Assembly (NCBI RefSeq): GCF_035621495.1
Contig: NZ_CP141821.1
Span: 1,950,760-2,014,759, forward strand
DNA length: 64,000 bases
Direction of reading: 5' to 3'
DNA from: Thermococcus sp. SY098
GTDB taxonomy: Archaea > Methanobacteriota_B > Thermococci > Thermococcales > Thermococcaceae
Under the pieces are notes generated by a model that was not told the DNA's origin, ran no database searches, and was given only the letters and a program-made list of their open reading frames with translations. The stretch's first letter is position 1. The number at the start of each line of letters is the position of its first letter. The translations under genes and the position numbers were made by a program. Below are positions 24,679-37,850 of this stretch, piece by piece.

Positions 24679-24684
24679 CACAAT

Positions 24685-24693
24685 GTTTATAAG
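24685..24693 (+). promoter_or_regulatory. TATA box of the first VapBC module, flanked by GTATGAC direct repeats
   Basis: GTTTATAAG lies 40 nt before the antitoxin ATG. Direct repeats GTATGAC at 24673-24679 and 24697-24703, 24 nt apart, bracket it and are candidates for antitoxin binding. Confidence 0.4.
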
Positions 24694-24724
24694 TATGTAT
24701 GACGAGTATATAAACGGTGATGTT

Positions 24725-24949
24725 ATGGCTGTTGTCAGCATCCGTATTCCTGATGAGCTTAAAGCGAAAATGAAGGAAGTTAATATAAACTGGAGCGAAG
24801 AGATACGGAGGTTTATTGAGATGAAAATACGGGAGCAGGAAAAAAGAAAGTTGCTTGATGAGATTGATGCTTTTCTCGAAAAGGAAGTTCCTCTCATGAA
24901 AAAGGGACAAGCAGTGAAGCTTGTGAGGGATGCTCGTGATAGTAATTGA
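24725..24949 (+). CDS. VapB-family antitoxin
   Basis: 74 residues. It begins with a ribbon-helix-helix-type strand (VVSIRIPDELKAKMKEV) followed by a long charged helix. It overlaps the PIN-domain toxin gene by 20 nt, the usual antitoxin-first order. ATG 24725 lies behind GGTGATGTT; the longer reading from 24683 would run through the promoter. It should neutralise the toxin and repress the operon. Confidence 0.82.
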   Translation: MAVVSIRIPDELKAKMKEVNINWSEEIRRFIEMKIREQEKRKLLDEIDAFLEKEVPLMKKGQAVKLVRDARDSN

Positions 24950-25337
24950 CACTTCGTCTCTAATCAAATATCTCCTCCGCGAAGAGGGCTGGCGTGACGT
25001 TTCGAAGTTTCTTCGTCAGAATCAGTTGGTTTCTTTAGAAATGGCATTGATTGAAGGGGCAAATGCAATTTGGAAGCGTTGTGTTCTTTACCAAGATATT
25101 CCTCTCAAAACGGCAGAGAAATTGCTTGGCTATCTTCACTCAACTAAAGGCATAATCATCTATGAGGATCCAATTGAATACTTGCCTAAGGCGGAAGAAA
25201 TTGCTCTTGAGAATAATGTTACCGTTTACGATTCTCTTTACATCGCTCAGGCTCTCAAATATGGAAAGTTAGCAACCAGCGATGAAAAACAGGGAAAAGT
25301 TGCAGAAAAGCTTGATATTGTGGTGTTCTACCTTTAG
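24930..25337 (+). CDS. VapC-family PIN-domain ribonuclease toxin
   Basis: 135 residues. The acidic residues of a PIN domain can be seen: VIDTSSL near the N terminus, E in MALIEGAN, and D in VYDSLYIAQAL and TSDEK. VapC toxins cleave tRNA or rRNA. The start lies inside the antitoxin gene. The last 4 nt overlap the convergent ferritin-VIT1 gene. Confidence 0.82.
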   Translation: MLVIVIDTSSLIKYLLREEGWRDVSKFLRQNQLVSLEMALIEGANAIWKRCVLYQDIPLKTAEKLLGYLHSTKGIIIYEDPIEYLPKAEEIALENNVTVYDSLYIAQALKYGKLATSDEKQGKVAEKLDIVVFYL

Positions 25338-28009: not shown

Positions 28010-29059
28010 ATGAAAATGGAAAGAATAAAGAAGCTTCAAAAGTTTATAAACGAGAACTCAATTGATGCAGCGCTCATCTCTAAACGTGAAAACTTGTTCT
28101 ACTTTTCTGGAGCTTCTCTGTTAGCTGGGGGGTATTTAGTTGTTACTCCGGATGAGGCTATAATTTATGTTCCCGAACTTGAATATGAAGCAACAAAGGA
28201 AGAGACTGAACTACCCGTTGAAAAGTTCAAGAGGCTGCCAGAACTTTACGAAAAGCTCAAATCTTACAGTATTTTGGGAATTGAAGGTTCAACAAGCTTT
28301 TCCTTCATGAATGCACTTAAAGAAAAAGCTGAGATAAAGGAGTTCAGGAGCGTTGATGATGTTATAAAAGACCTTAGAATTGTGAAAACCAAAGAAGAAA
28401 TCGAGATAATCAAAAGTGCGTGTGAATTAGCTGACATGGCTGTTATGGTAGCTATTGAAGAAATCAGCGAAGGGAAGAGAGAAAGAGAAATAGCAGCAAA
28501 GGTTGAGTATGTTATGAAGATGAACGGTGCTGAAAAGCCAGCCTTTGATACAATCATCGCCAGCGGTCACAGGTCAGCTCTCCCTCACGGGGTTGCAAGC
28601 GATAAGAGGATTGAGAGAGGAGATTTGGTCGTCATAGATTTAGGGGCACTTTACAGGCACTACAATTCTGACATCACCAGAACCATAGTTGTTGGAAAGC
28701 CCAATGAGAAGCAGAAGGAGATTTATGAGATAGTTCTTGAGGCTCAAAAAACAGCTGTTGAAAAAGCTAAGCCGGGAATGACTGCGAAGGAACTCGACAG
28801 CATAGCAAGGACCATCATAGCGGAATACGGCTATGGTGATTACTTTATCCACAGCCTTGGTCACGGAGTTGGCTTGGAAATTCATGAGCCTCCGAGGATA
28901 AGTCAGTACGATGAGACTGTTCTCAAGGAAGGAATGGTCATAACAATTGAGCCGGGAATTTACATTCCAAAGCTTGGTGGCGTCAGAATTGAGGATACAG
29001 TTGTTATAACGAAGGATGGAGCAGAGAGGCTCACAAAGATGGAGAGAGAGCTGATTTAA
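28010..29059 (+). CDS. pepQ: Xaa-Pro dipeptidase (prolidase, M24B)
   Basis: About 349 residues, matching the Pyrococcus furiosus prolidase (348). The N-terminal creatinase-like domain precedes the pita-bread fold with all five metal ligands: D in VVIDLGA, D in NSDITRT, H in SLGHGVGLEIHE, E in TIEPGIY and E in VRIEDTV. It hydrolyses Xaa-Pro dipeptides with two metal ions. ATG 28010 lies behind GGTGGTGATC; ATG 28016 is possible. Confidence 0.93.
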   Translation: MKMERIKKLQKFINENSIDAALISKRENLFYFSGASLLAGGYLVVTPDEAIIYVPELEYEATKEETELPVEKFKRLPELYEKLKSYSILGIEGSTSFSFMNALKEKAEIKEFRSVDDVIKDLRIVKTKEEIEIIKSACELADMAVMVAIEEISEGKREREIAAKVEYVMKMNGAEKPAFDTIIASGHRSALPHGVASDKRIERGDLVVIDLGALYRHYNSDITRTIVVGKPNEKQKEIYEIVLEAQKTAVEKAKPGMTAKELDSIARTIIAEYGYGDYFIHSLGHGVGLEIHEPPRISQYDETVLKEGMVITIEPGIYIPKLGGVRIEDTVVITKDGAERLTKMERELI

Positions 29060-29430
29060 TTCCTTTTTATTATCTTAACTTTTAATCCATATTCAGTGAA
29101 CAGTCCAAAGTCCTCATCACAGGTAACAAGCATTTTATCGTGAGCTATTGCATTGGCAGCTATCAATAAATCTTTAGCAGGCGGTAGATTGCCTTTTTTC
29201 TTTAAGTCTCTGTAGATCTCTCCGGCAATCTTTGCACTTCTTTCGTCAAAATGCAGTTTTGGTAGCTTTTCAATCATAAGTTCTTCCTTTTCCTTCAGAG
29301 TTCCACAGTAAAGCTCAAAAACTGTGATTGCAGAGAGACCGTAAACCCATTCAGAAGGCAGAGACTTGACGACTTTTGAATTTCCTTTAAAAACCTCAAT
29401 TATCACACTTGTATCAAGGATTGCATCCAT
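29056..29430 (-). CDS. VapC-family PIN-domain toxin (second module)
   Basis: 124 residues with [11 protein letters not shown] in [10 protein letters not shown], and [12 protein letters not shown] plus TCDEDF, the four-acid pattern of PIN RNases. It overlaps its antitoxin gene by 28 nt, and its 3' end overlaps the prolidase stop by 4 nt (convergent). Confidence 0.88.
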
Positions 29431-29624
29431 TTTTGTGCCTCCTTTAATTCCTTCTCAAGCTTTTCGGCTTCTTCCTTACTTCTTGTTCCAAATCCTATTA
29501 GCAGGATGTTGAGATTTCCTTCTTTCTTTATAAGTTCTCTGATAACTTCTGAGAAGCTCTTTTTCCCCTTAATCCTCACAAGCTCCCGATAAACATCATC
29601 TGATATTGTTATTGTTTTTCCCAT
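29403..29624 (-). CDS. VapB-family antitoxin (second module)
   Basis: 73 residues beginning [20 protein letters not shown], followed by [11 protein letters not shown] and a charged tail, like the DUF217/VapB antitoxins of Thermococcales. ATG 29624 follows CAGGTGATTAAA. Reading on from 29657 would start inside the operator palindrome and is rejected. Confidence 0.85.
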
Positions 29625-29635
29625 TTTAATCACCT

Positions 29636-29649
29636 GTGCATGCATGCAC
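29636..29649. promoter_or_regulatory. Perfect 14-bp palindrome, probable VapBC operator
   Basis: GTGCATGCATGCAC is fully palindromic, with a further ATGCAT at 29652-29657. It lies about 25 nt downstream of the minus-strand TATA (29670-29678), that is, over the expected transcript start. Autoregulation by VapBC is the likely role. Confidence 0.55.
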
Positions 29650-29669
29650 GAATGCATGTAATATCGAGA

Positions 29670-29711: not shown

Positions 29712-30782
29712 ATGAAAATACTTGACCAGAATCCCAAGGAGGGCAAAATTAAAGTTAAAGCCGAAACTCTCGATGACCTCTGGCATCTCTATCACATCAT
29801 TGAGGAGGGAGATGTAGTTTATGCAAAGACCCTCAGAAAGCAGAGTCAGAGAAGTGATTCCCTTAGACCAGAAAAGGTCCAGGCTATTCCGGTGTTTTTA
29901 GGCATTAAAGCTGAAAAAATCAACTTCCACAAGTTTGCAAATGCGTTGAGGATTACTGGTCCAATAGTGTATGCCTCAAGAGAGGAAGTTCCCCTTGGTA
30001 AGTATCACACAATAGCAGTTGAAGAGAACAGCATTATTACAATTCAAAAGCCCAAATGGAAGGCTCACCACTTGGAAAGATTAAAGCAAGCTGTTGAAGC
30101 TTCTCAGAGAGCAAGAATTATGATTGTTGTTGTAGATGATGGTGAGGCCGATATTGCCCTCGTGAGAGAATACGGAGTTGATATAATTGCCAACATAAGA
30201 CACAACCTTGGGGGGAAGAGATACAGCACAAATAGGGAAGCTGAGGAAATGAAGTTCTTCCACGATTTAGCAAAGACAATTGCTGAAATTATGGAGAGGG
30301 AAAAGGTGGATAAAGCTATTGTCGCCGGTCCCGGCTTTGTGAAGGAGAACTTTTACAGGTTCCTTCAGGAGAATTATCCGGAGTTAGCAAAGCGTGTTGT
30401 AATTGAGGACACAAGTGTTACAGGAAGAACAGGGATTTATGAGGTCATTAGGAGAGGAACCGTTGACAAAGTTTACCATGAAAACAGAGTCGCAAAGGAA
30501 ATTCAGCTCGTGGAGAAGGTCATAGAGGAGATTGCAAAGAATGGATTGGTGGCTTACGGTATAAGAGAGGTCGAAGAAGCAGCGAATTATGGAGCAATTG
30601 AGACTCTACTCGTTTTAGATGAGCTTTTGAAGGGAGAGATGAGAGAAAAGATTGAACAGCTCATGGAGTTCGTCAGGCAGATGAGGGGAGAAATAGTAAT
30701 TGTCAGCTCGGAACATGAGGGCGGTGAAAAGCTGAAAGCTTTAGGAGGAATTGCCGCACTGCTGAGGTATAAGATCAAGTGA
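29712..30782 (+). CDS. pelA: Pelota (Dom34) mRNA surveillance protein
   Basis: 356 residues. It has the N-terminal Sm-like domain (DDLWHLYHIIEEGDVVYA), a central eRF1-like domain with NIRHNLGGKRY, and a C-terminal L7Ae-like domain (NYGAIETLLVLDELL). With aEF1A or ABCE1 it rescues stalled ribosomes. The GGQ peptide-release motif is absent, as expected for pelota. Its ribosome binding site is GGGGGGTGAGAGA. Confidence 0.95.
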   Translation: MKILDQNPKEGKIKVKAETLDDLWHLYHIIEEGDVVYAKTLRKQSQRSDSLRPEKVQAIPVFLGIKAEKINFHKFANALRITGPIVYASREEVPLGKYHTIAVEENSIITIQKPKWKAHHLERLKQAVEASQRARIMIVVVDDGEADIALVREYGVDIIANIRHNLGGKRYSTNREAEEMKFFHDLAKTIAEIMEREKVDKAIVAGPGFVKENFYRFLQENYPELAKRVVIEDTSVTGRTGIYEVIRRGTVDKVYHENRVAKEIQLVEKVIEEIAKNGLVAYGIREVEEAANYGAIETLLVLDELLKGEMREKIEQLMEFVRQMRGEIVIVSSEHEGGEKLKALGGIAALLRYKIK

Positions 30783-31769
30783 TTAGTAAATCTCGGCATA
30801 GGCATCGCTTTCAAATCTTGGGAACTCCTCCTCTTCGCTGTTCTTCACTAAAACCCTGTCTTTTTCTTCTGTAAACTCACCAATGATGAAAGCTTTAATT
30901 CCATTCTTAGATAGCTCCTCGATTATTCTTGAGGAATTCCTCCTGGGAGAAATTATCACCAGCGTTCCAGTTGATGAGACAGTTAGAGGATTCACATCAA
31001 AAGCTTCAAGAACTTTTTTGACGAGAGGGGGAATGTAAATTTTGTCATAATAAACTCTAAAGCCAACATTTGAATTGTCGGCAATCTCATGAAGGGCTGT
31101 TAAACCCCCTTCGGTTGCATCATGCATACCTCTCACGAACTTTCTCACAGCAAGGGCATCAGGAACAACAGTTTCAAGCTTATACATCTCTCTGAGCTTG
31201 GCTATTTCGGCTGGGGTTAAAGTTTCTTTAAGATCTTCTTTCTTGAAGTAAGCCGCTCCAACGGCGAACTCTATCCCAATGCCCTTCGTTATTATTATAT
31301 CATCACCGGGTTTTGCTAACGGTAGTCTCAGGTCTTCTTTCTTCACCAATCCAAGTGCCGTTGTGGTGGCGGTTGTTTCTTTAATCGTGGTATAAACTCC
31401 CGTATGTCCCCCGATTACAGCTGTTCCGTATTCTCTGCACTCTTCATTGAGTTCCTCCATTATTTGAGCGAGCCCTTCTTTAGTGGAACCTGGAGATAAC
31501 AATAGGTCAACAATCAGCCATCTCGGCTTAGCCCCAAAAACTGCAACATCGCTTGCTGCGAAATGATACGTGAAGAATCCAAAATGCTCCATTGGAACGC
31601 CTAAAACTGGATCAGTTGCTATGACGAGATAGTTTTCATTGCTATACTCAAGAACTGCTGCATCAAAGCCTTCTCTCGGACCGAAAACAACTTTCGGATC
31701 TTCAATGTTGAGGTGTGGTAAGATGGCTTCATTTAAAATTTCGCCTCTAATTTTCCCGAGCGGTAACAT
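30783..31769 (-). CDS. AIR synthase/HypE-related ATP-dependent enzyme, function unassigned
   Basis: About 328 residues with the PurM/SelD/HypE/ThiL fold. It has FGPREGFDAAVLE, SDVAVFGAKPRW, a conserved GGHTGVY, and a C-terminal HDATEGGLTALHEIAD. It lacks the C-terminal PRIC motif of HypE and has no selenocysteine/cysteine loop like SelD, so neither name is safe. It overlaps the upstream PP-loop ATPase gene by 23 nt. The pair probably works on one substrate by activating acyl- or thio-groups with ATP. ATG 31769 follows GGAGGTTTAGAG. Confidence 0.78.
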   Translation of the reverse strand: MLPLGKIRGEILNEAILPHLNIEDPKVVFGPREGFDAAVLEYSNENYLVIATDPVLGVPMEHFGFFTYHFAASDVAVFGAKPRWLIVDLLLSPGSTKEGLAQIMEELNEECREYGTAVIGGHTGVYTTIKETTATTTALGLVKKEDLRLPLAKPGDDIIITKGIGIEFAVGAAYFKKEDLKETLTPAEIAKLREMYKLETVVPDALAVRKFVRGMHDATEGGLTALHEIADNSNVGFRVYYDKIYIPPLVKKVLEAFDVNPLTVSSTGTLVIISPRRNSSRIIEELSKNGIKAFIIGEFTEEKDRVLVKNSEEEEFPRFESDAYAEIY

Positions 31770-32550
31770 CTCTAAACCTCCTAATGATTTCATCTGCTTC
31801 TCTTAGGATTTTTTCATTACATCCATGGCACATTAACTCTAAACTCGGCACTCTCACGCTCATTCGGACTTTGTATTTTCTCGCAAGCTTGCTTATCTCG
31901 TAGTTTACCTCATAAGCCAAATCGAAATACTCCTGCTTAATGATTTTAAATTTGTCAATATACTGCAGAGGGCAACCCTCTCTCCACTGCCTTCTTCTTC
32001 CATATTCATACATCCTGTAAGGTTTTATACCCGCTTCTTTTACAAGCTTTTCAACTTCTTCAGCAGTGTACTTAATCAGCGGTCTGAATACTGGAATCCC
32101 GATCCTTGGTATCTCACTCAACCTTATGTCCCCCTTCCACTGATCGAGCAGGGCTCCAATTATCTTATCATTTGCATTGTCACCTTTTGCTAAAACTTCA
32201 AAGCCGTTAATTTTTGCAAACCAATAGGCATTTCTTATCATGACTTTTTTGCAGTGGATACATATTGGGCCCTTCCTTCCAATTGAATTCTTGAGAAGTC
32301 CTTCTGTTATATCAATAAGATAATGCTCGACTCTAAGTTTTTCAGTGAACCTCATTCCCCACAGCAGTGTTTCCCTCCAGCTCCATTTGTGGAAGAAGGT
32401 TATGGCAGAAACATCTAAATCAGCTTTTTTCATAATATACAGGGCTAAACTGCTGTCTTTTCCTCCAGAAAACATGAGGAGTATTTTCTTTTTATGAAGC
32501 CCAGTGTTTTCTGCAAACTGTTTTGTCTCCTTTATAATTTCTGCGAGCAT
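31747..32550 (-). CDS. PP-loop ATPase with two CxxC motifs, TtcA/TtuA-like
   Basis: 267 residues. The PP-loop is SGGKDSSLA near residues 29-37. CIHC lies near residue 97 and CHGC near residue 247, with GCPLQY between. This resembles tRNA 2-thiolation enzymes (TtcA, TtuA, Ncs6), which hold an iron-sulphur cluster or zinc between such cysteines and adenylate a base before sulphur transfer. It lacks the outer zinc fingers of TtuA. It is translationally coupled to an AIR-synthase-like gene, which those enzymes normally are not. Its substrate is unknown. Confidence 0.78.
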   Translation of the reverse strand: MLAEIIKETKQFAENTGLHKKKILLMFSGGKDSSLALYIMKKADLDVSAITFFHKWSWRETLLWGMRFTEKLRVEHYLIDITEGLLKNSIGRKGPICIHCKKVMIRNAYWFAKINGFEVLAKGDNANDKIIGALLDQWKGDIRLSEIPRIGIPVFRPLIKYTAEEVEKLVKEAGIKPYRMYEYGRRRQWREGCPLQYIDKFKIIKQEYFDLAYEVNYEISKLARKYKVRMSVRVPSLELMCHGCNEKILREADEIIRRFRDVTAREN

Positions 32551-37043: not shown

Positions 37044-37850
37044 TTAATATCTCATTCTGGGATTATACTCGAGGATTATCTCGCCATTTTTAAATACCCT
37101 AATTACTCCGCTTTCCGAGAGTGTTATTGCTGTTGCTTTTGTTTTCTTTGAGATAGCTGCGGCTGCAAGATGCCTGCTCCCCAGCCCCGGAGGTAAGTGG
37201 ACATCAAGCTTTTTTGGGTCAACATCAAGATATCTGCCTGCTGCCACGATCCTTCCGGTGTTGCTGATTATAAATGCCCCGTCAAGGGTTGCAAATTCTT
37301 TTATAACACCCTTAATGTTCTTATCCAGCACATTCAGCTTATGCCCCCTGAAGGGGTTTGGGACTATCTGATGAGAGTACTTCAGAACATTTTTTGTGTC
37401 TCCGACCACAAATATTGTTCCAACAGGATATCCTTCCTTTCCCTCTAAGCTTAATTCCACTGCTATTTCAAGTAGCCTTTGAAGCACGGTTTGGGCTTCC
37501 TCAAAGAAACCCTTTGTAGTTGCTATGGTTCTTTTTACAGTTCTTATCCCGAGGGTATTTGGAGTGATGTAGAGGAATGTTTCTCCGTTAGATATAATGT
37601 TGTTCTCAACAAGAAATGCGGAAATGAGATTTACCACGTTCTTTATCCCTAAAGATAGCGGTAAGGGGATTTTTTTAATCCTTTCATCGGAGATATCAAA
37701 GTCCTTACCAACAAGTATAATGGGGACTTCAACTTCAGGTATTTTCCCTTCAAATGAGGGGGTTATCAGTACCAGTGCTTTAGCATCAATTTCTTTAATT
37801 ATCTCTAAGGCTTTATTGAGAAGAACTTTGGTGTATCCACTCTTCTTCAT
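37044..37850 (-). CDS. dacZ: Archaeal diadenylate cyclase (c-di-AMP synthase, DacZ type)
   Basis: 268 residues. The N-terminal part resembles the pyruvate-kinase-like domain of archaeal DacZ. The C-terminal DAC domain has LDGAFII (DGA motif) and GLGSRHLAAAAISKK (RHx motif), followed by TLSESG. It condenses two ATP to c-di-AMP, a signal tied to potassium and osmotic balance. ATG 37850 follows GACGGTGTAAAA, with a TATA-like ATTTATAAAT at 37883-37892. Confidence 0.85.
   Translation of the reverse strand: MKKSGYTKVLLNKALEIIKEIDAKALVLITPSFEGKIPEVEVPIILVGKDFDISDERIKKIPLPLSLGIKNVVNLISAFLVENNIISNGETFLYITPNTLGIRTVKRTIATTKGFFEEAQTVLQRLLEIAVELSLEGKEGYPVGTIFVVGDTKNVLKYSHQIVPNPFRGHKLNVLDKNIKGVIKEFATLDGAFIISNTGRIVAAGRYLDVDPKKLDVHLPPGLGSRHLAAAAISKKTKATAITLSESGVIRVFKNGEIILEYNPRMRY

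Follow-up and report, generated by a model that had tools for sequence, protein, structure and literature searches.

Two overlapping genes of Thermococcus sp. SY098 encode P2, a PP-loop ATPase, and P1, an AIRS-fold protein resembling HypE and SelD. Judged from its sequence and predicted structure, P2 may well be an RNA thiolase of the [4Fe-4S] type that is facultatively linked to P1. The proposed mechanism is as follows. (i) P2 would be an ATP-using PP-loop enzyme of sulphur insertion, most likely holding a [4Fe-4S] cluster on cysteines C97, C100 and C193. (ii) The free iron site of this cluster would take sulphide. (iii) P2 would adenylate a ring carbonyl, after which the oxygen would be replaced by sulphur. 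(iv) The substrate would be tRNA, with 2-thiocytidine (s2C), which is reported at position 17 of Thermococcales tRNA, as the foremost candidate product. (v) P1 would act separately, as an ATP-using enzyme of the HypE/SelD type, and has a paralogue that occurs throughout the Thermococcales. The assignment of s2C to P2 is tentative. A second PP-loop family, L011, is a serious rival for this modification, and the readings of P2 as a thiolase, of P2 as the s2C enzyme and of L011 as the s2C enzyme overlap in part.

Gene organization

The window is the whole stretch of 64,000 nucleotides that was analysed; it belongs to a Thermococcaceae genome of 2,033,621 bases on one contig. P2 (31747..32550, minus strand) is a protein of 267 amino acids with an SGGKDS motif and the CXXC-C cysteines C97, C100 and C193. 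P1 (30783..31769, minus strand) is a HypE/SelD-like protein of 328 amino acids. An earlier, sequence-only reading of the window had given these coordinates, the strand and the two folds (PP-loop and HypE/PurM-type AIRS), all of which are borne out. It had also described an overlap of 23 nt between the 3' end of P2 and the 5' start of P1 (31747..31769, minus strand). This holds for a P1 start codon at 31769 (ATG), as is suggested by an upstream AGGAGG Shine-Dalgarno-like site (31777..31782, minus strand), which lies within the P2 coding sequence, and by the onset of sequence conservation at this codon. An alternative upstream start at 31793 (minus strand) would give a P1 of 336 amino acids and an overlap of 47 nt. 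RNA folding ahead of the P1 start revealed nothing. In most genomes the two genes probably share a transcript.

A DUF4870 membrane protein is encoded on the same strand 37 nt upstream of P2 (32588..32965, minus strand), and is possibly the product of the first operon gene in genera g1 and g4. The gene for pelota (29712..30782, plus strand) is convergent with P1 and adjoins it in the loci inspected from genera g1, g4, g5 and g6. Further neighbours of the pair are Trm1 and ribosomal protein L35Ae, joined in genus g5 by methyltransferase and L15e genes. Feo genes and DUF4870 also lie nearby, and a PhnP-like hydrolase adjoins P2 in genus g3. No consistent functional partner emerges from these neighbourhoods, with PP2C, the PhnP-like hydrolase, Feo and DUF4870 considered. 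Elsewhere in the window are two PIN-domain toxin-type genes (24683-25337 and 29056-29657), each with a small partner upstream, that of the second being VapB-like, and a DacZ-type diadenylate cyclase (37044-37850).

P2 as a candidate cluster-bearing thiolase

The three cysteines C97, C100 and C193 are invariant in 17/17 aligned Thermococcales P2 sequences. Their codons, worked out by hand from the ORF coordinates, lie on the minus strand at 32251..32262 for the CIHC motif (C97-C100, the first two predicted cluster ligands) and at 31972..31974 for C193, in the motif REGCPLQY. The protein has five cysteines in all, and the remaining two, C241 and C244, form a second CxxC that is lost as a unit in two of the 17 orthologues. 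Of the two CxxC pairs noted earlier, the first is invariant and the second is not; the third invariant cysteine is C193. The same 17 sequences share the invariant motifs SGGKDS, KGDNAND and RRRQWREGCPLQYID.

The spacing of C97/C100/C193 resembles that of the [4Fe-4S] cluster ligands of NcsA (142/145/233; excerpts of PMC10067955) and of Thermotoga LarE (92/95/172; excerpts of PMC9283937). C97 and C100 align with the CSYC of the TtuA and NcsA-like proteins of the window genome itself. All three proteins have an ExCP motif at the third cysteine, a correspondence seen by eye, MAFFT having displaced C193. The closest solved sequences are those of Pyrococcus TtuA (3vrh/5mko, profile E 7e-9). Pfam matches are to weak PP-loop families, and PHROGs matches to remote PP-loop families. 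P2 reaches the curated cut-off of 0/11 NCBIfam models among the matches listed, and P1 that of 0/15. On the matches listed, both proteins stay outside the curated families, which agrees with the earlier reading.

The AlphaFold model of P2 is of moderate quality (mean pLDDT 74.5), and falls below 50 at residues 180-195, around C193. It matches NcsA (6scy: Z 17.3, rmsd 3.7, 181 aligned) and TtuA (5mkq: Z 17.1, rmsd 3.7, 185 aligned) in VIA-align, with structures of TilS and GMP synthase tying as top matches over residues 1-204. Since NcsA, TtuA, TilS and GMP synthase match about equally, the fold alone does not discriminate; the cysteines do. By appearance P2 belongs with the TtcA/TtuA/NcsA/LarE thiolases, as the TtcA/TtuA-like label of the sequence-only reading implied.

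Likeness to TtuA and NcsA (Ncs6) extends to the SGGKDS PP-loop and the CXXC-C cysteines; TtuA is nearest in sequence and both are among the top structure matches. P2 differs from them in having neither the N- nor the C-terminal zinc finger described in excerpts of PMC10067955. It also has GDNAND where they have GHNLDD, an extra RRRQWREGCP stretch and a C-terminal part of its own. Against the TtuA NCBIfam model P2 scores 29.8 bits (cut-off 450), and the NcsA model is absent among the matches listed. The window genome encodes TtuA (546 bits) and an NcsA-like protein (287 bits, below the cut-off of 500) in separate genes, and three ThiI-type proteins away from P2. At L007 and L008 (about 719-720 kb of G000:C1) a ThiI gene is followed by one for a ThiI-like PP-loop protein that lacks the N-terminal half; a further ThiI-type gene lies in L010.

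TtcA lacks zinc fingers, as P2 does, and both have the features of the CXXC-C thiolase group. Bacterial TtcA, the s2C32 enzyme, is placed in the same cluster-bearing subgroup in excerpts of a review (PMC8584467). P2 does not match the TtcA family models of NCBIfam at E 0.01, and TtcA acts at tRNA C32, whereas in archaea s2C is known from position 17 (excerpts of PMC7668247).

LarE of the [4Fe-4S] type also shares the CXXC-C cysteines, the PP-loop and a similar length with P2, and LarE structures match the model at up to Z 16.1. A role as LarE in making the nickel-pincer cofactor is nevertheless extremely unlikely and strongly disfavoured. The LarE profile gives P2 30.2 bits against a cut-off of 150, no LarE scores above its cut-off in the 94 Thermococcales genomes, and LarC (PF01969) is found in 0/94 by a search whose control was positive in 6/14.

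The reading of P2 as an RNA thiolase is favoured by its basic charge (pI 9.5, compared with 5.0 for the acidic P1), by the neighbouring pelota, Trm1 and L35Ae genes, and by the separate genes for TtuA, the NcsA-like protein and the ThiI proteins. The low pLDDT around C193, the lack of zinc fingers and the equally high scores of GMP synthase and TilS are counted against it. Defence and viral families were considered for the pair and rejected: PADLOC gives no defence match, and P2 relatives were found neither on plasmids nor on viral contigs, where 37 pattern stretches were inspected.

Candidate enzymes for 2-thiocytidine

The tRNA of T. kodakarensis contains m5s2U, cnm5s2U, s4U, s2C and methylthio-adenosines, and its s2C level stays the same when the ubiquitin-like sulphur carriers are mutated (excerpts of PMC11323500). 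The discussion in these excerpts names ttuA and ncsA alone as possible 2-thiolases. s2C17 occurs in P. furiosus, M. maripaludis and tRNA-Trp of T. kodakarensis (excerpts of PMC7668247). No enzyme for the Thermococcus/Pyrococcus s2C is named in the excerpts of these two papers, and a review of thermophile tRNA enzymes (PMC6313347) mentions neither thiocytidine nor TtcA. Among the papers listed for s2C and Thermococcus, titles and abstract openings disclose no archaeal s2C enzyme. The papers listed for PP-loop proteins with HypE, AIR synthase, SelD or COG1973 include none on the P1/P2 pair.

In the window genome 44 tRNA genes were found, 40 of them with position 17; C17 is present in 32/40, and the substrate for s2C17 is therefore available. 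P2 itself occurs in 77/94 Thermococcales genomes. This amounts to 77/115 genomes of the phylum, with 0/21 outside the order. In a species-genome collection two strict peptide patterns recovered 18 loci, all from Thermococcaceae. P2 is thus found in Thermococcaceae alone, the search having covered strict patterns outside the phylum, plasmids and viral contigs. This range counts against the s2C17 assignment, as s2C17 also occurs in Methanococcus. The range within one family, together with the absences of P2, suits a dispensable or lineage-specific thiolation.

Comparison of tRNA genes is also counted against P2, though the C17 counts carry little information. The P2-less genome G079 (presumably T. 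sibiricus) keeps C17 in 30/41 tRNAs with position 17, compared with 33/41 in its P2-bearing relative G078 (presumably T. litoralis) and the 32/40 of the window genome, which also bears P2. A D-arm pattern with T17 has matches in 36/94 genomes. When matches were sorted by eye to real D-arms, T17 was present in 8/17 P2-less and 7/77 P2-bearing genomes (Fisher p 0.0007), in a test that covered the T17 pattern only. It is given little weight because six of the eight genomes belong to one genus, the P2-bearing G086 and G002 also have T17, and the sorting was by eye.

L011 (L231; G000:C1:864313-865059) is a second orphan PP-loop family with CXXC-C cysteines. It is quite possible, though short of probable, that L011 makes s2C17 and that P2 would thiolate another nucleoside or a small molecule. 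L011 occurs in 105/115 genomes and 12/12 genera of the phylum, and 13 aligned sequences show conservation of its cysteines, in CGxC and GC. It has no Pfam match at 1e-5 and no NCBIfam match at 1e-20. As s2C17 is also found in Methanococcus (excerpts of PMC7668247) and P2 was seen in Thermococcaceae alone, L011 is better suited to a shared modification. Presence does not discriminate, for G024 has P2 as well as L011. This genome is, we assume, that of T. kodakarensis, a member of the group with a genetic system. The candidates for the s2C enzyme are thereby narrowed to two CXXC-C PP-loop families without curated names, P2 and L011.

P1 and its paralogue

P1 is probably a separate HypE/SelD-like ATP enzyme. 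It has AIRS domains in Pfam and matches an AIRS family of unknown function in PHROGs. Its model (pLDDT 88.4) has the AIRS fold of HypE, which is the closest match (Z 33.2, rmsd 2.0, 292 aligned), followed by SelD, ThiL and PurM. Identity to HypE is 24%, and HypE is also the best curated profile. An auxiliary HypE function in hydrogenase maturation, which these top-ranking matches would suggest, is nevertheless highly doubtful. The profile score of 111.5 bits is below the cut-off of 251.6, the window genome has a true HypE gene (350 bits) at another place, and no hydrogenase gene is recognised among the annotated neighbours of P1. The C-terminal PRxC cysteine tail of HypE is also missing, as had been noted earlier: P1 ends in AEIY, whereas the HypE of the window genome ends in PVPRVC.

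The fold is similar to that of SelD, against whose profile P1 scores 81.3 bits (cut-off 125). P1 was previously said to lack the SelD active-site loop, which is correct for the catalytic Cys/Sec, there being no cysteine before residue 119. Part of the loop is nevertheless kept, in the form of an invariant N-terminal GK (G13-K14) whose position corresponds to that of the lysine in SelD. This N-terminal lysine is essential in SelD. K14 is invariant in 13/13 aligned rows, and the match of the P1 profile to E. coli SelD begins at profile position 11 (equal to K14 by our own offset count) and chain residue 20.

The window genome has six AIRS-type genes, read as PurL, PurM, HypE, ThiL, P1 and a P1 paralogue; HypE is named from its model, and PurL, PurM and ThiL from length and sequence. 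No SelD is recognised among these AIRS proteins. The selenium link that had been suggested for the pair finds no support here, and a selenium role is rejected on this ground. The paralogue (L002:1510-2502) likewise has no family over cut-off. It is 38% identical to P1 and present across the Thermococcales, each of the six genera included. Identity to a cyanobacterial plasmid protein is 39-41% for the paralogue; haloarchaeal plasmids encode proteins, assigned by annotation to the AIR synthase family, that share 31-33% identity with P1. Pairwise identities alone were used for these comparisons, the AIRS tree having long branches and few supported forks.

HypE dehydrates its substrate to a cyano product. 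By analogy, P1 or the universal paralogue might form the nitrile of cnm5U at tRNA position 34 through a HypE-like ATP-driven dehydration. This is improbable. For P1 the idea is attractive because cnm5U is present, along with cnm5s2U, in T. kodakarensis tRNA (excerpts of PMC11323500); otherwise it draws on the close fold match to HypE and on phyletic range, with P1 relatives on haloarchaeal plasmids. Against it, no gene link to U34 modification is seen, P1 is absent from genus g3 among the matches listed, and a relative also occurs on a cyanobacterial plasmid. It is more doubtful still that the pair forms an operon for tRNA modification in Thermococcaceae, with P2 as the missing archaeal s2C synthase and P1 or its paralogue the missing nitrile-forming enzyme of cnm5U. 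If true, P1 or the paralogue would be an AIRS enzyme acting on RNA.

Facultative coupling of the two genes

P1 orthologues, separated from the paralogue by an identity of at least 50%, are found in 77/94 Thermococcales genomes among the matches listed; a weak P1 fragment could lie below these. G086 has one unclear P1 match and is scored as lacking P1; G061, G064 and G086 have P2 fragments only and are scored as bearing P2. On P1 matches listed, 66 of the 94 genomes have both genes, 11 P2 only, 11 P1 only and six neither. The corresponding counts for the 74 good genomes are 58, eight, six and two. Co-occurrence gives a Fisher p of 0.29 (n=74) or 0.07 (n=94), phylogeny being ignored, and is no more than the near-universality of each gene would produce. 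Phylogenetic profiling had been put forward as a check on the pair, and it does not bear out a dependence of one gene on the other.

Where both genes are present they are adjacent in 56/66 genomes, 751-761 nt apart in 9/66 and unlinked in one (G002). With P2 present in 77/94 genomes, the pairing is not a chance arrangement. The sequence-only reading had suggested that P1 and P2 could work together by a two-ATP route, in a sulphur or selenium pathway not yet assigned. That both are obligate steps of such a pathway is unlikely. The frequent adjacency, the gap of a single gene's size in nine more genomes and the P1 Shine-Dalgarno site inside P2 speak for such a pathway, and the paralogue, present in all six genera, could substitute for P1. 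Against these stand the Fisher test and the good genomes with one gene only, P1 in 6/74 and P2 in 8/74 among the P1 matches listed. In four examined g5 genomes (G076, G079, G080 and G085) P2 is cleanly missing, and P1 remains in place, with pelota on one side and the same methyltransferase gene on the other. P1 is lacking in 9/9 genomes of genus g3, which we take to be Pyrococcus, among the matches listed. From the P1-only and P2-only genomes, and from P1 in place without P2, it follows that each gene was lost, or never gained, independently. The coupling is facultative, and neither gene requires the other. A gene overlap can mislead: operon coupling of PP-loop and AIRS proteins is attractive yet facultative here, and caution is warranted when pathways are inferred from it.

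In G022 the gene that separates P2 from P1 encodes an Stp1-like PP2C phosphatase (L103:7645-8400), and a gap of the same size is present in eight other genomes.
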